The notes beneath the pieces were generated by a model that saw only the letters and a list, made by a program, of their open reading frames with translations, searched no databases and was not told the DNA's origin. This document shows, in pieces, positions 28,028 through 34,699 of a stretch of 64,000 nt of DNA. Every line of letters starts with the position of its first letter. The first letter of the stretch is position 1. Position numbers and translations under genes: made by a program. The DNA comes from Microbacterium terrae (GTDB taxonomy: Bacteria; Actinomycetota; Actinomycetes; Actinomycetales; Microbacteriaceae). Where the stretch lies: the NCBI RefSeq assembly GCF_017831975.1, contig NZ_JAFDSS010000001.1, positions 558,001 through 622,000 on the forward strand, in the 5' to 3' direction.

Positions 28028-30316
28028 TCACTCGAGAACGACCAGTGTCGACGTCGCGCGCGTCATCGCGACGTATCGATCGACGGCGCCTTCGATCCCG
28101 TCGCCGAACCGTTCGGGCTCGACCAGCACGACGAGGTCGAACTCGAGCCCCTTCGCCGTCTCCGGAGTGAGCACACGCACACGTGACGAGTCGGCGACGT
28201 CGCTCCAGAAGCCGGCATCTGTCTTCGCCTCATCGAGAAGCGCAGCGGCGTCCTCGAGCACCCCGCCATCGACCGCCCCGCCATCGAGCACCCCACCATC
28301 GACCGTCCCGCAATTGAGCACCCCACCATCGACCGTCCCGCAATTGAGCACCCCGCCATCGGCAGCCAGGATCACGCACGCCACACCCTCGGCATGCGCG
28401 GCGAGCCACTCCTCGAGCACGTCCCGAAGCTCGCCGACCGTCCCGCGGCGCACCGCGATGCCGCTCGATCGGATCGAGGTGGGCACGTTCGCGTCGGGGA
28501 TCGCCGCGCGGATGACCGGCTCCGCCTCGGCCATCACCTCCGCCGGCGTGCGGTAGTTCACCCGCAGTTCGGCCCGGCGAACCCGCGTGAATCCGACGCG
28601 GTCGAGGCGCTCCTCCCACGACTCGGTGAAGCCGTGGCGAGCCTGGGCGCGATCACCCACGATGGTGAAGCTCCGCGAGGGGCAGCGGGCGAGCAGCATC
28701 CGCCATTGCGCATCGGTGAGCTCCTGCGCCTCATCGACGATCACATGGGCGAACGGCCCGGCGAGCAGATCGGCATCGCGCGGTGTCAGCACAGCTTCGT
28801 CGACCAGGCTGTTGCGCAGGTCATCGCCGTCCATCCACTGCATCAGCTCGTCGCCGGCCTCCTTCAGCCGGTCGACGACCTGCGCCATGTACTCGCGTTC
28901 GGCGTCGAGCCGGGCCCGGCGCACGCGACGGTCGCGGGATGCCGCGGGGTCGCCCAGTCGCCGCCGCGCGGCATCGAGCAGCGGCAGGTCGGCGAGCGTC
29001 CACGCCGACCCCGCCGGGCGCTGCAGCGCCGCGACCTCGTCGGGGCTCAGCCACGGCGCGCACCGCCGCAGGTACGCCGGCACCGTCCAGAGGTCGGCCA
29101 CGAGAACGGATGCCTCCACCAGCGGCCACGCACGCGTGAACGCGCGGCCGAGCTCCTCGTTCTGCACCAGGGCCCGGCGCAGCAGATGCGGGGCGACTGC
29201 GTCGGGGTCGACCTGATCGGCGAGGATGTCGAGCAGGCTCTCCCACACCTGATCGCGCGCATCGTTGTGGGGGAGCCCGGGCTCGGCCGACGCGAAGGAC
29301 TCCGCCCAGTCCGTCGCGGTCACGAGCAGGTCCATCCACGGCGTCGCCACGACGAGATCGCGGGTCGGCGGCTCCTCGTACAGGCGCACCGCCGGCTCGA
29401 TCGCGTCGACCAGCCGCGCATCCGCCTTCAGCCGCGCGATGCGCGGGTCGCCCTCCGGCGCGGCATCCGCTCCCTCGCGCACCAGGTCGCGCAGCGTGCA
29501 GGTCTGCACGCTGTCCTCGCCGAGCGCGGGCAGCACGTCGGCCACGAAGGCGAGGTACGGCTCGTGCGGCCCGACGACGAGCACGCCGCCGTGCCCTTCA
29601 CCGAGCCGCGCATCGGCGTGGAGGAGATACGCGGCGCGATGCAGCGCGACCACTGTCTTGCCCGTTCCGGGACCCCCGTCGACGACCAGGGCGCCCGCCG
29701 AGTCCGCTCGGATGATCGCATCCTGATCCGCCTGGATCGTGCTCAGCACGTCGCGCATCCGGGGCGAACGGCTCGTGCCGAGGCTCGCGATGAACGCGGA
29801 CTCGTCGTCGAGCGCCGTGCCCGAGGCGGCTGCCTCCGCGGTGAACGCCTCATCCCAGTAATCGCGGACGCGTCCGCCGCCCCACCGGTAGCGCCGGCGT
29901 GAGGCGAGGCCGCGCGGGTCGGCGAACGTCGCGGCGAAGTACGGCTCGGCGGCGGGGGCGCGCCAGTCCACGAGCAGGCGCCGGCCATCGGCATCCGACA
30001 GTCCGAACCGGCCGATGTAGGTCGGGGGCGACCCGTCGGCGGGAACCACGCGGCCGAGGCACGCATCGAGTCCGAACCGGCGCAGCGCCCGGATCCGCGC
30101 CGTGAGACGGTGCACCTCGAGGTCACGATCGAGGGCGAGCTGCCCACCGCGCGCCGGGGCGAGGCGCGTGACCTCCAGGCGTGCAGTCAGGTCGGCGAGC
30201 TGGGTGCGCAGCGCGACGTCGATCGCGGCGAAGTGCTCGACGTCGGCGGCGATCAGGGCGCGGTCGGCCTTCGCCGACAGGTTCGGGGGCAGGTCGAAGA
30301 CGGGGGTCTCGGTCAC
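28028..30316 (-). CDS. helR: RNA polymerase-recycling motor ATPase HelR (HelD class)
   Basis: A 762-residue superfamily-1 protein. The N-terminal coiled-coil region (about 1-95) enters the RNA polymerase channels in HelD homologues. Walker A is GGPGTGKTVVALH near 212 and motif II is VIVDEAQEL near 527; the UvrD-like second RecA domain ends with TPETAKGLEFDLVVL and RYVAMTRA. HelR displaces stalled or rifampicin-bound RNA polymerase and gives rifampicin tolerance in Streptomyces and Mycobacterium. The GTG at 30316 has an AGAAGGA site upstream. A palindrome like the rifamycin-associated element lies 60 bases before the start. Residues 652-687 are an unusual tandem-repeat insert. Confidence 0.92.
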   Translation of the reverse strand: MTETPVFDLPPNLSAKADRALIAADVEHFAAIDVALRTQLADLTARLEVTRLAPARGGQLALDRDLEVHRLTARIRALRRFGLDACLGRVVPADGSPPTYIGRFGLSDADGRRLLVDWRAPAAEPYFAATFADPRGLASRRRYRWGGGRVRDYWDEAFTAEAAASGTALDDESAFIASLGTSRSPRMRDVLSTIQADQDAIIRADSAGALVVDGGPGTGKTVVALHRAAYLLHADARLGEGHGGVLVVGPHEPYLAFVADVLPALGEDSVQTCTLRDLVREGADAAPEGDPRIARLKADARLVDAIEPAVRLYEEPPTRDLVVATPWMDLLVTATDWAESFASAEPGLPHNDARDQVWESLLDILADQVDPDAVAPHLLRRALVQNEELGRAFTRAWPLVEASVLVADLWTVPAYLRRCAPWLSPDEVAALQRPAGSAWTLADLPLLDAARRRLGDPAASRDRRVRRARLDAEREYMAQVVDRLKEAGDELMQWMDGDDLRNSLVDEAVLTPRDADLLAGPFAHVIVDEAQELTDAQWRMLLARCPSRSFTIVGDRAQARHGFTESWEERLDRVGFTRVRRAELRVNYRTPAEVMAEAEPVIRAAIPDANVPTSIRSSGIAVRRGTVGELRDVLEEWLAAHAEGVACVILAADGGVLNCGTVDGGVLNCGTVDGGVLDGGAVDGGVLEDAAALLDEAKTDAGFWSDVADSSRVRVLTPETAKGLEFDLVVLVEPERFGDGIEGAVDRYVAMTRATSTLVVLE
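28256..28360 (-). repeat. 30-bp tandem repeat inside helR
   Basis: About 3.5 units of 30 bp (28256-28285, 28286-28315, 28316-28345, partial to 28360); the middle two are identical. Each encodes ten residues of the form DGGVLNCGTV in frame with HelR, in the second RecA-like domain. Units contain GAGCACCCC and CCATCGACCG blocks. Confidence 0.9.
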
Positions 30317-30360
30317 GTGGTCCTTCTGTTCCGTCGGCCGGATCTTCCGGCCGACCTGCG

Positions 30361-30413
30361 ATTCTGCCCCAGCAGGGGGCCCTTGCGGCAAGCCCCCCTC
30401 CTGCGCGGATAAT
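30361..30413. promoter_or_regulatory. divergent promoter with rifamycin-associated-element-like palindrome
   Basis: At 30376-30398 a G-run, a perfect CTTGC-G-GCAAG core (30382-30392) and a C-run form an inverted repeat. Read towards helR it is GGGGCTTGCCGCAAGG followed by a C-run, very close to the 19-bp rifamycin-associated element remembered from actinobacterial rifamycin-response genes. The core supplies a TTGC-type -35 in both directions: TTGCCG with CAGAAT (30361-30366) for helR and TTGCGG with GATAAT (30408-30413) for the oxidoreductase, each with a 19-base spacer. Confidence 0.75.
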
Positions 30414-30476
30414 GGAAAGGGAAGGAACACCGTCGACACCTACAAGCGCACACCGTTCCGCAGCCGCATCGATCGG

Positions 30477-30869
30477 ATGATGGCCTGGCTCGCCCGCCGG
30501 GGCATCACGCCCGGCGGCGTCGCATCGCTCACCGTCGTGGGTCGCACGAGCGGCGAGCCGCGCACCGTTCCCGTCACGCCCATCGCGGTCGACGGCATCG
30601 ACTACCTCGTCGCGCCGTATGGGCCGGTCGCCTGGGTGCACAACCTCCGGGCAGCACGTGTCGCGACGCTTCAGCAGGGTCGCCGCATGCAGCGCATCGA
30701 GGCGCGAGAGGTGACGGATGCCGCGACCGCGGCACGCGTGCTCCAGCGGTATGTGCAGAAGACGCCGGTCGTCCGTCCGGTCGTCGCCGCGGGGCCGGAG
30801 GAGCCGCTCGAGGCTTTCGAGGCCATCGTGGCGGAGCATCCGGTGTTCGCGTACGACGTCTCCGCCTGA
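30477..30869 (+). CDS. deazaflavin-dependent nitroreductase family protein (Ddn-like)
   Basis: A 130-residue protein from the first usable ATG: MMAWLARRGITP, VASLTVVGRTSGEPRTVPV, YLVAPYGPVAWVHNLRAARVATL. This is the split-barrel F420/FMN-type oxidoreductase family (Ddn/FDOR-A). Homology seems to continue upstream of the ATG: the frame reads VDTYKRTPFRSRIDR from a GTC at 30432, which is preceded by a well-spaced AAGGA site, but no ATG, GTG or TTG lies there. The true start may be a near-cognate codon, a mutated start, or the ATG. It is divergent from helR and shares its palindromic promoter, so it may also respond to rifamycins. Confidence 0.8.
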   Translation: MMAWLARRGITPGGVASLTVVGRTSGEPRTVPVTPIAVDGIDYLVAPYGPVAWVHNLRAARVATLQQGRRMQRIEAREVTDAATAARVLQRYVQKTPVVRPVVAAGPEEPLEAFEAIVAEHPVFAYDVSA

Positions 30870-30978
30870 CGCACGCGTTTCGCGGAAGCCATTCCGTATC
30901 AGCGCGATCCGCGCCATGCTCTGAGGGGGAGGCGGCGCGCGCGCCGCGGGGAAGAGACGACACATCCTGGGGGATGCC

Positions 30979-31905
30979 ATGACGTCACAGCCGAGCCTGC
31001 ACGATTTCGACGACCGAACAGCCCTCGTCACCGGAGCCAGCAGCGGGGTGGGCCTGGAGATCGCGCGCGCCCTCGCGGCGGCGGGCGCCCGCGTCATCAT
31101 GCCGGTCCGCTCCCGCGCTCGCGGTGACGCGGCGATCGCGCGGATCCGGGAGACGGTGCCGGATGCCGCCGTGGAGCTGCGCGATCTCGACCTGACGCGA
31201 CTCGAATCGGTCGCCGCGGTCGCCGAGGAGCTGATCGCCGAAGAGGATCCGATCGACCTGCTCGTGCTCAACGCCGGCATCGTGCTCCTCGGCGATCCGG
31301 TGCGCCACGTCACACCCGACGGGTTCGAGGCCCACTTCCAGACGAACTTCCTCGGGCACTACGCCCTCACCCGCGCGCTCCTGCCTCTGCTGCGGTCGTC
31401 GCGCACGCGGGTGGCCGTGCAGTGCAGCCTCGCCGCAGCCCGCGGGCATGTGCCGTGGCGCGACCTGCAGAGCACCGAGCGGTACGCGCCGCTCCGTGCC
31501 TATGCGTCGTCGAAGATGCTGCTCGGCCTGTTCGCGGTCGAGCTCGCCCGGCGCAGCGCCGCAGATCACTGGGGGCTCGCGGTGAACCTCTGCCACCCCG
31601 GAGTCGTGCCCGACACGGGCATCGCCCCGGCGATCCGTGAGAAGCAGGGCACGGGTGCGGGGGCGCGCCTGGCGGCGCGGCTCGGCCACTCTCCGGCGTC
31701 GGCGGCGCGCACGGCCCTCGCCGCGCTGCGCGCCGAGTACGGCACCGCCGAGATCGTCGGCCCGCGCATGTTCGCCCCAGCCGGGGCATTCGGCATGAGC
31801 GGCCCGCCGCGCGAGCAGCGTCCGTTCCACACCCTCACCGACCGCTCCGATGGCGCTCGCGCGTGGGGCACGGGTGAGGCGCTCGCCGTCGGCGCTGTCG
31901 TGTGA
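30979..31905 (+). CDS. short-chain dehydrogenase/reductase
   Basis: A 308-residue SDR resembling retinol/protochlorophyllide-type oxidoreductases. TALVTGASSGVGLEIARAL is the NAD(P) motif (TGxxxGxG), LVLNAGIV is the NNAG-equivalent, and CSLAAA and YASSKMLLGLFAVEL carry the Ser-Tyr-Lys catalytic residues. The last 40 residues are a variable tail. The substrate is unknown. The ATG follows the oxidoreductase gene by 109 bases. Confidence 0.9.
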   Translation: MTSQPSLHDFDDRTALVTGASSGVGLEIARALAAAGARVIMPVRSRARGDAAIARIRETVPDAAVELRDLDLTRLESVAAVAEELIAEEDPIDLLVLNAGIVLLGDPVRHVTPDGFEAHFQTNFLGHYALTRALLPLLRSSRTRVAVQCSLAAARGHVPWRDLQSTERYAPLRAYASSKMLLGLFAVELARRSAADHWGLAVNLCHPGVVPDTGIAPAIREKQGTGAGARLAARLGHSPASAARTALAALRAEYGTAEIVGPRMFAPAGAFGMSGPPREQRPFHTLTDRSDGARAWGTGEALAVGAVV

Positions 31906-31936
31906 CGGCGAGGCTCCCCGACCGTGATGTGCCCGG

Positions 31937-32022
31937 CACCCGTGACGAGGCGCGCAGTGACACTCGGTCCGGCGGTAGCCTGCACGGGTGACCCCGCACC
32001 GGCTCACCCGTGACGAGGCGCG
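31937..32022 (+). repeat. 18-bp direct repeat around the start of the YcaQ-like gene
   Basis: CACCCGTGACGAGGCGCG occurs at 31937-31954 and again at 32005-32022, the second within the coding start (HRLTRDEAR). The 68-base spacing includes the GTG start. Confidence 0.7.
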
Positions 32023-33079
32023 TCGCATCATCGTGCGCGCGCAGCTGCTCGACGCCGACCGCCCCGGCGACGTCGTCGAGGTCGCCGAGCAGATCGGGTA
32101 CGTCAAGATCGACCCGACAGCGACGATCGCCCCGTGCGAGCACACCGTGCTCTGGTCGCGCATCGGCTGGTCGTACGAGCCGGGACAGCTTCAGAAGGCG
32201 GTCGAACTCGATCGGCTGCTGTTCGAATTCGACGGCGGCTTCCGCCCGATGAGCCTGCTGCCGCTCATGCGTCCGGCGATGCGGCGGTGGCCGACCCGTG
32301 AGAAGACGAAGCAGTGGCTCGAGGCGAACGACCGGTTCCGTCGCGACATCCTCGACCGCCTGAGATCGGACGGCGCGCTCCTCACCTCCGACATCCCCGA
32401 CACGGCCCAGGTCAGTCGCGCGCCCGACGGATGGAGCGGGTCGAACCAGGTGCCGATCATGCTCGACTTCCTGCTGCGACAGGGCGAGGTCGCCGTCGTC
32501 GGCCGGGAGGGGAGGCGCAAGCGCTGGGATCTGGCCGAGCGGGTCTATCCGAACGACCTTCCGGAGTACGGCGACGACGAGGCCGCCCGCCTGCTCGAAG
32601 AGCGGATGCTCCGTGCCGCGGGCCTCGCGAAGCCGCACTGGTGGTGGAACGGCGCCGGCAAGACGTCGGGCGAGCCGGCAGTCGTCGAGGGGAGCACGGG
32701 GAAGTTCCGGGTCGACCCCGAAGCCCTCGCCTCTCTGCGCGAAGACGACGATGCGGGCGGCCGCGTCGCGTTCCTCAACCCGTACGACAGGCTTCTGTTC
32801 GACCGGGGGCGCCTCCGCGACCTCTTCGAGTTCGAGTACGTGCTCGAGCAGTTCAAGCCGAAACCGCAGCGCAGGTACGGCTACTTCGCGCATCCGATCC
32901 TGTCGGGCGATCGATTCGTCGGGATGCTCGAGGCCGAAGTCGACCGCGAGCGTGAGGTGCTGCGCGTCAACGCGGTGCACGAGTTCCTGCCGTTCGAACC
33001 CGAAGAGGCCGAGATGGTCCGCGCGGAGATCGACGAGCTCGCACAGTGGCTCGGGGTGGGCGTGACCGGACTGGCGTGA
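31988..33079 (+). CDS. winged-helix DNA glycosylase-like protein (YcaQ/AlkX family)
   Basis: A 363-residue HTH_42 protein. The N-terminal part LTRDEARRIIVRAQLLD and LLFEFDGGFRPMSLLPLMRP, and the C-terminal YGYFAHPILSGDRFVGMLEAEVDRE, match the AlkZ/AlkX (YcaQ) superfamily of interstrand-crosslink DNA glycosylases. At the catalytic Q-x-D/Q-x-Q position (usually LGxxQID) the sequence reads YVKIDPTATI, so Gln is Lys while the Asp remains. Activity is therefore uncertain. It starts at GTG 31988. Confidence 0.85.
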   Translation: MTPHRLTRDEARRIIVRAQLLDADRPGDVVEVAEQIGYVKIDPTATIAPCEHTVLWSRIGWSYEPGQLQKAVELDRLLFEFDGGFRPMSLLPLMRPAMRRWPTREKTKQWLEANDRFRRDILDRLRSDGALLTSDIPDTAQVSRAPDGWSGSNQVPIMLDFLLRQGEVAVVGREGRRKRWDLAERVYPNDLPEYGDDEAARLLEERMLRAAGLAKPHWWWNGAGKTSGEPAVVEGSTGKFRVDPEALASLREDDDAGGRVAFLNPYDRLLFDRGRLRDLFEFEYVLEQFKPKPQRRYGYFAHPILSGDRFVGMLEAEVDREREVLRVNAVHEFLPFEPEEAEMVRAEIDELAQWLGVGVTGLA

Positions 33080-33126
33080 CCGGCGGGCGTGACCGGCTGG
33101 CGTGAATGACGGGCTGGCGTGACCGG
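33059..33126 (+). repeat. GGCGTGACCGG short repeats at the 3' end of the YcaQ-like gene
   Basis: The 11-mer GGCGTGACCGG occurs four times (33059, 33073, 33086, 33116) with a degenerate copy at 33099. The array spans the stop codon and about 50 bases beyond it. The rest of the 237-base gap up to the next gene shows nothing recognisable. Confidence 0.75.
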
Positions 33127-33316
33127 ACCGGGGTGAACAGTCCACTCGAAATGGACGCCGCACGTATCTGAGTGCGCCGAGGCTGCTCCTCTTCGGGGAT
33201 GGCTCGGCGCTGGACGCCGGCCTCAGGGTTCGGTCGCCGGGTCTTCGCCCCGCCGGGTCCGCTCAGAACCGCTCCCGTCCACTCTGCCTCGGGGCCCGAC
33301 TCACCAAGGAACGCAT

Positions 33317-34699
33317 ATGACCATCGATCTGCTCGCCCTCACCGTCGACCAGCAGCGCGGCATCCTGCGCGACGCCCTGGGCGACCGCATCCTGTTCGCC
33401 GGCGACGCGGGGTACGACGACCAGCGCCGGCCGTGGAACACCGCCTTCGATCAGCGGCCCTTCGCCGTGGCGCGCCCCGAGAACACCGAAGACGTCGTCG
33501 ACGCGGTGCGCGCCGCCGTCGCCGTCGGACTGCGCGTGGCTCCCCAGTCCACGGGGCACGGCGCGGGCGCGCTCGCCGACACCGATCTGAGCGACACGGT
33601 GCTGATGTCGCTCTCGCGGCTGCGCGGTGTGTCGATCGACCCCGCGACCAGCACGGCGACCGTCCTCGGCGGCTCCCACTGGAACGACGTGCTGCTCGTC
33701 GCCGCCCACCACGGGCTGACGGCGCTGCACGGCAGTGCCGGAGACGTGTCGGTCGCCGGATACAGCCTCAACGGCGGACTCTCGTTCTACGCACGCGCCC
33801 ACGGGCTCGCCGTCAACAGCGTCCGCGCCGTGGAGCTCGTGACCGCCGACGGCGTGATCGTCCGGGCGAGCGCGACCGAGAACGCCGACCTCTTCTGGGC
33901 GGTGCGCGGCGGCTCGGGCTCGTTCGGCGTCGTCGTCTCCCTCGAGATCGAGCTGCTGCCCCTGGCCGACGTGTTCGCCGGGATGCTGCTGTGGGATGCC
34001 TCGCACACCGCGGAGGTGACGGAGGCGTGGGCGCAGTTCGCAGCATCCGCGCCCGAGTCCGCCACGACAGCTCTGCGAGTCATGAACTTCCCGCCGATGC
34101 CCGAGCTCCCGCCATTCCTGTCGGGTCGGTCGGTCGTGGTCGTCGACGGTGCGATCCTCGAATCGGATGCTGTCGCCGAGGGCATCCTCGCTCCGCTCCG
34201 CTCGCTGGCGCCCGAGATCGACACCTTCTCCCGGATCCCGGCCGCCGCCCTCGTCGCGGTGCACATGGATCCGCCCGACCCCACACCGTCGGTCAACGCG
34301 CACGTCGTGCTCAGCGGCTTCCCTGCGGATGCGGTCGACACGTTCGTCACGGTCTCGGCGACACCCGGCCTCTTCGTCACCGAGATCCGGCACATCGGCG
34401 GGGCGGCTGCACGTCCCGCGTCGCACGGGGGCGCGGTCTCGGCGATCGCCGGCGAGTTCCTGCTGCACGCCATCACGGTCGTGCCGGTGCCGCAGGCGCG
34501 GCCGGGGGCACTCGCGACCGTGCAGGCGGGAGCTGCAGCCTTCACGCCGTGGCGCACCGACGCGCTCGCCCTCACCTTCATCGACGGGGGTGCCGACCCG
34601 CGCGCCGGATTCGGCGACGCCGCCGAGCGGCTCAGCGAGCTCAAGGAGCAGTTCGATCCGGAGGATGTGTTCGCCGCCGCGCGACCGGTCTCGCGCTGA
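33317..34699 (+). CDS. FAD-binding oxidoreductase (BBE-like, FAD_binding_4)
   Basis: A 460-residue flavoenzyme of the vanillyl-alcohol-oxidase fold. The FAD domain contains PFAVARPENTEDVVDAVRAA, and QSTGHGAGALADTDL, in which the histidine is the usual 8-alpha attachment site. GSAGDVSVAGYSLNGGLSFYARAHGL and AVRGGSGSFGVVVSLEIELLPL follow. The C-terminal berberine-bridge region is short. Such enzymes oxidise alcohols or sugars; the substrate is unknown. The ATG has AAGGA upstream. A terminator hairpin follows. Confidence 0.88.
   Translation: MTIDLLALTVDQQRGILRDALGDRILFAGDAGYDDQRRPWNTAFDQRPFAVARPENTEDVVDAVRAAVAVGLRVAPQSTGHGAGALADTDLSDTVLMSLSRLRGVSIDPATSTATVLGGSHWNDVLLVAAHHGLTALHGSAGDVSVAGYSLNGGLSFYARAHGLAVNSVRAVELVTADGVIVRASATENADLFWAVRGGSGSFGVVVSLEIELLPLADVFAGMLLWDASHTAEVTEAWAQFAASAPESATTALRVMNFPPMPELPPFLSGRSVVVVDGAILESDAVAEGILAPLRSLAPEIDTFSRIPAAALVAVHMDPPDPTPSVNAHVVLSGFPADAVDTFVTVSATPGLFVTEIRHIGGAAARPASHGGAVSAIAGEFLLHAITVVPVPQARPGALATVQAGAAAFTPWRTDALALTFIDGGADPRAGFGDAAERLSELKEQFDPEDVFAAARPVSR

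Follow-up and report, generated by a model that had tools for sequence, protein, structure and literature searches.

The rifamycin-associated element (RAE) of helR is probably a bidirectional sigma-A-type promoter, the antisense half of which would act as a built-in competitor until rifamycin-bound RNA polymerase shifts the balance to the sense side. The gene helR protects bacteria against rifamycin antibiotics, and the site analyzed here lies in a window of 64,000 nucleotides (the whole stretch of Microbacterium terrae DNA under study). At the level of sequence the result is a pair of mirror sigma-A-type halves on one palindrome, recurring at five resistance gene families and frequently accompanied by a predicted antisense terminator. 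The features concerned, with "sense" denoting the direction of the resistance gene, are as follows.

28028–30316, minus strand: helR, an RNA polymerase-protecting ATPase (HelD class II; NF041254), GTG start at 30316
30333–30355, minus strand: perfect 10-bp stem-loop at the predicted 5' end of the helR mRNA (ViennaRNA)
30361–30366, minus strand: sense -10 CAGAAT (helR), with -35 TTGCCG and a 19-bp spacer
30376–30399, no strand: RAE palindrome, with TTGCSG -35s on both strands; an element conserved upstream of helR/rox/rph/arr/rgt
30382–30392, centre 30387: RAE core CTTGCGGCAAG, between helR and the Ddn-type frame
30408–30413, plus strand: mirror (antisense) -10 GATAAT, with -35 TTGCGG at 30383–30388 and a 19-bp spacer
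30420–30427, plus strand: predicted antisense +1 (a conserved G at offset 33) and purine-rich leader GGAAGGAA
30432–30869, plus strand: Ddn-type F420/quinone reductase-like frame, conserved N-terminus at about GTC 30432, first ATG at 30477

The first-pass annotation had described a palindrome core between two divergent genes, taken it for an RAE in front of helR and assigned it a -35 on each side, with identical 19-base spacers to CAGAAT and GATAAT; each of these points was borne out, the RAE assignment by the core, its uniqueness, the RAE profile match and NF041254. Read on the minus strand towards helR, the core is GGGGGGCTTGCCGCAAGGGCCCCC, and CTTGCSGCAAG occurs only once in the 3.9 Mb genome. 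HelR scored 1145.5 bits against NF041254 (cut-off 750). A profile built from 84 RAEs outside the genus and scanned over the window matched only the helR RAE, in the helR orientation (36.4 bits), with the other strand of that site at -20 and the next best site at -36. The palindrome is GC-rich, carries the CTTGCNGCAAG core, lies just 5' of a rifamycin-resistance gene and, judged by sequence only, overlaps the -35 of the proximal promoter. In these respects the helR-associated palindrome is a genuine RAE, sharing with those already described the palindrome, the overlap with the proximal -35 and the linkage to helR and rifamycin-inactivating genes. In the literature the RAE is a 19-bp palindrome for which no regulator has been identified (PMC10719064, PMC12802891), and its sensing of rifamycin was called unresolved in papers of 2022 and 2026 (including PMC12802891).

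The palindrome TTGCNGCAA comprises two overlapping -35 elements facing outwards in opposite directions, 19 bp from each -10, and both -10 hexamers are placed exactly at ±21 to 26 from the core centre. Overlapping promoter elements on both strands, as in bidirectional promoters, are thus present both in the sequence and in its conservation. A generic promoter scan picked up neither half because it allowed only 16–18-bp spacers as against the 19 bp found here. An Rfam search gave no match.

HelR was above the NF041254 cut-off in 101 of 247 congeners, and the upstream regions of 101 Microbacterium-like helR loci (100 congeners and the window's own) were compared. At 92 of the 101 the RAE core was present with no more than one change; nine congeners with helR above the cut-off (L128, L132, L166, L173–L176, L179 and L182) had no RAE within 400 bp upstream. 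A weighted profile over the 91 RAE-bearing congener loci showed a near-invariant core with both -10s mirrored at ±21 to 26, the frequencies of A2 and T6 being.99 and.99 for the sense hexamer and 1.00 and.99 for the antisense one. The antisense hexamer in the genus was TATCCT or GATAAT at the same position, an alternation as expected of different -10 sequences, and the antisense +1 G at offset 33 reached.97 in the relatives. The GGGG/CCCC arms of the palindrome, which lie outside the -35s, were also conserved, and conservation fell to background beyond about -46/+40. At 30 Microbacterium-like loci the upstream gene is co-directional and ends near the RAE; the antisense -10 was kept at 29 of them. 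By comparison, all 11 CTTGCSGCAAG cores located in the genus away from resistance genes lacked both -10s. One congener has two CTTGCSGCAAG cores 41 bp apart (G093:C1:2709251 and 2709292). The window's own genome also encodes an arr-type rifampin ADP-ribosyltransferase (L292, C1:2400217–2400597, 157.5 bits); no RAE was found at this gene, and it was rejected as a second RAE target.

Beyond the genus, sampling across the phylum gave RAE patterns in 36 of 396 genomes and sampling across the class in 162 of 395, with almost no matches to a reversed control pattern in the same genome sets. The 84 non-genus RAEs, oriented solely by homology of the downstream gene, preceded HelR (37), Rox (25), Rph (12), Arr (5) and Rgt (5) genes. 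When exemplars were checked against NCBIfam, Rox and Arr exceeded their cut-offs; the Rgt exemplar did not, and Rph was represented by a fragment, though for both the assigned family was still the best. At offset 21, a -10 with A2 and T6 was present in 97% of cases in the sense direction and likewise in 97% in the antisense direction; at most other offsets it was near zero, apart from weaker secondary overlaps at sense 23–24 and antisense 27. The sense hexamer followed CANAAT (first base C.90) and the antisense hexamer TANNTT (T 1.00, A 1.00), and the mirrored arrangement held for HelR, Rox, Rph, Arr and Rgt RAEs. Where the upstream gene is co-directional, the antisense -10 was kept at 46 of 47 non-genus loci, although neighbor genes were called simply from open frames and composition, so that individual calls may be wrong. 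From this pattern of retention, the antisense half at RAEs is not there for a divergent gene. Since the divergent half is kept in relatives, it is not due to chance, and on conservation the symmetric divergent promoter at the helR RAE is real.

In many species the predicted antisense leader, with +1 at offset 33, takes the form GGCAAGGAG-loop-CTCCTTGCC. A hairpin beginning at the antisense +1 was found at 43 of the 84 non-genus RAEs versus 4.0 in control windows; at 22 of 84 a T-run (four or more T within eight bases) came next, versus none in the controls. Counted through the last base of the stem, the RNA had a median length of 25 nt, and the predicted antisense product is a self-terminating RNA of about 25–35 nt. 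The hairpin arms comprised 33 distinct pairs in 40 sites with compensatory changes (stem position 36, for example, being G-C in 12 and A-T in 23); the sites were picked for having a hairpin, so this pairing is not independent evidence, which comes instead from the excess over control and the T-runs. The antisense hairpin was present at 11 of 90 sites in Microbacterium-like genomes versus 5.5 in controls, having mostly been lost there; it was found at none of the five Arr-linked RAEs and is absent from the antisense leader in the window. A role of the leader as the Shine-Dalgarno sequence of a conserved small protein was rejected, as neither start codons nor frame lengths behind it clearly exceeded control, and was further disfavored by conservation ending at about offset 46; the purine run appears to fit better as the 5' arm of the hairpin. 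The hairpin was also rejected as a terminator of the upstream gene, the T-run being on the antisense strand.

On the sense side, the 42-nt leader of helR folds with -22.0 kcal/mol (ViennaRNA). Sense-leader hairpins were somewhat enriched in the genus (28/92 versus 8.5 in controls). Outside it they showed no enrichment (6/84 versus 8.7), and a conserved sense-side hairpin was rejected for RAEs outside the genus. Within the coding region, positions 28254–28361 hold a 30-bp tandem repeat of 3.6 copies, which inserts a repeated 10-aa unit (GGVLNCGTVD) into the protein at about position 649 of the HelR profile.

The mirrored -10s in 91 congeners and 97% of the 84 non-genus RAEs, absent from all 11 control cores, support a mechanism in which the two halves compete. 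With two overlapping outward -35s, each 19 bp from its -10, RNA polymerase could, judging by its footprint size, occupy the site in only one orientation at a time, so that the halves would be mutually exclusive. At the first base of the -10 the antisense half conforms to the consensus (T), and the sense half retains a weakening C (CANAAT). In many species the antisense transcript would be a tiny hairpin RNA that terminates itself. We infer that both halves are active, that the antisense one is the stronger and that, as a built-in competitor, it holds the resistance gene low until rifamycin-bound polymerase, possibly together with an RAE-binding protein, tips the balance to the sense side. The arrangement recalls helD of B. 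subtilis, where rifampicin inducibility comes from an antisense promoter that is the stronger of the two, has a 19-bp spacer and gives rise to a short terminated RNA; it represses the weak sense promoter up to the point at which polymerase is arrested on it by rifampicin (PMC12802891). Both systems would combine a weak sense promoter with a stronger antisense one at a helD-type gene; the B. subtilis promoters, however, are convergent and separate, whereas those of the RAE are divergent, share a -35 palindrome and have predicted strengths. Of the antisense features of the B. subtilis alarm, the 19-bp spacer is matched here, while the terminator occurs at about half of the other RAEs and is absent in the window. 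Promoter interference relieved by rifampicin has also been reported for M. smegmatis rpoBC (PMC10719064). In bidirectional promoters one bound polymerase excludes the other, and in E. coli these likewise consist of pseudo-symmetric DNA that takes polymerase in two exclusive orientations; the E. coli examples share their -10s, whereas the RAE shares its -35s and is a conserved feature of one particular regulon. Five E. coli bidirectional promoters had basal activities too low for their two directions to compete, exclusive binding mattering only where one direction is strong (PMC12825309). A further step, that the RAE itself senses rifamycin with no dedicated regulator, through exclusive mirror promoters, a stronger self-terminating antisense unit and re-allocation of polymerase under inhibition, is put forward tentatively, as a possibility rather than an expectation. 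If true, the RAE would be a divergent version, in actinobacteria, of the Bacillus alarm; this would explain the form of the palindrome and place intrinsic rifamycin resistance in actinobacteria and in Firmicutes on a common principle. The RAE is usually seen as the operator of a missing transcription factor, to which the mirror promoter and terminator offer a concrete and testable alternative. Later open papers summarizing the founding RAE and HelR work mention neither the mirror promoter nor the self-terminating antisense RNA.

The main rival to competition is an RAE-binding regulator: a dedicated rifamycin- or stress-responsive dimer that switches both halves together, with the antisense half arising as a side effect of the operator's symmetry. 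Published work assumes such a regulator (PMC10719064, PMC12802891) and, although we consider it less likely than competition, several observations speak for it. The conserved GGGG/CCCC arms extend beyond the -35s and are not promoter elements, which suggests contact with some protein partner, and 19-bp spacers are suboptimal without help. Deletion of half the RAE, as cited in PMC10719064, abolished helD induction (Hurst-Hess et al. 2022), but such a deletion removes a -35 as well. Symmetry alone, moreover, would require neither a -10 of its own hexamer type nor a +1 G nor an antisense terminator, and the RAE papers considered here report no protein that binds it. Competition has its own difficulties: in its simple form it does not readily account for induction, because a rifamycin-arrested antisense polymerase would still cover the shared -35, and the predicted terminator is confined to about half of the RAEs outside the genus and is uncommon in Microbacterium-like genomes. 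The literature also describes a second, upstream sense promoter (P1) in M. smegmatis, which the competition model leaves out. A reading in which only the sense promoter matters and the antisense -10 is non-functional, a relic or the product of chance, is very improbable, since this -10 stays invariant across five gene families and numerous genera whether or not a divergent gene is present.

The first-pass annotation had further proposed that the symmetry signals a new RAE-linked gene, a Ddn-type reductase sharing the element with helR. The divergent promoter stands by its conservation, but it was not made for this gene: mirror promoters are generic to RAEs, the mirror half is kept without a divergent gene (29/30 in the genus, 46/47 in other genera), and the helR–Ddn pair, sought in the other genomes examined, was seen only in the window's genome, so that Ddn was rejected as a conserved partner of helR. 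Orthologues are present in 6 of 366 other congeners (58–64% identity), none with an RAE within about 1.5 kb, and a scan of genome contigs gave further relatives only in Cellulomonas (49–50%). The protein resembles the known deazaflavin-dependent reductases in scoring above the family cut-off (TIGR00026, 53.9 bits versus 46.35; PF04075 also above cut-off) and differs in lacking a canonical start at its conserved N-terminus and in having no PDB relative detected by single-sequence search. Between the mirror -10 and the ATG at 30477 there is no ATG, GTG or TTG. The conserved N-terminus reads ACC-GTC-GAC-ACC-TAC, most orthologues beginning ATG-GCG/GCC-GGC-ACC/ACG/AGC-TAC and L290 beginning ATG-TCG-TCG-TAC; within 30429–30480, GTC (in GTCGAC) stands at the expected GTG start, and loss of the start codon or a non-canonical start is possible. 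It is improbable that the gene is a true member of the RAE regulon, induced with helR and acting, for example, by redox chemistry on the rifamycin naphthoquinone/hydroquinone core, even though the frame lies directly 3' of the mirror promoter (at +12 from the antisense start), is intact with normal codon-position composition (GC3 0.88) and resides in a host that would make F420, judged by cofD, the one pathway gene examined (304.5 bits, cut-off 257). The redox state of rifamycin is relevant to resistance (PMC8370238), and other redox genes (FMN reductase, Zn-dehydrogenase) lie divergently at the RAE in some congeners. The weight of a unique pair, a generic promoter and a frame with no canonical start codon is against it, and the Ddn-type oxidoreductase looks like a chance neighbor of the helR RAE, its accidental placement behind the antisense promoter in one lineage only being the simplest reading. 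Because the window lacks the antisense terminator, the mirror promoter would read into the frame, probably constitutively or reciprocally to helR. The competition model would have this promoter active without rifamycin, and it need not be rifamycin-induced; the arrangement, seen once, also counts among the model's counterpoints.

Downstream of the mirror promoter, the Ddn-type, SDR, AlkZ-like glycosylase and FAD oxidase genes (30432–34699) are co-directional, lie 109, 82 and 237 nt apart and may be transcribed from it as a single unit. At one congener locus (L120, genome G013) an AlkZ-like gene 77% identical to that of the window (31988–33079) ends 36 bp before the RAE; there it is co-directional with helR, whereas in the window it lies on the other side and points away. 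At seven further loci (L145, L150, L151, L158, L169, L170 and L171) an NADPH-dependent FMN reductase stands directly behind the RAE antisense promoter, a second redox family on that side in congeners.
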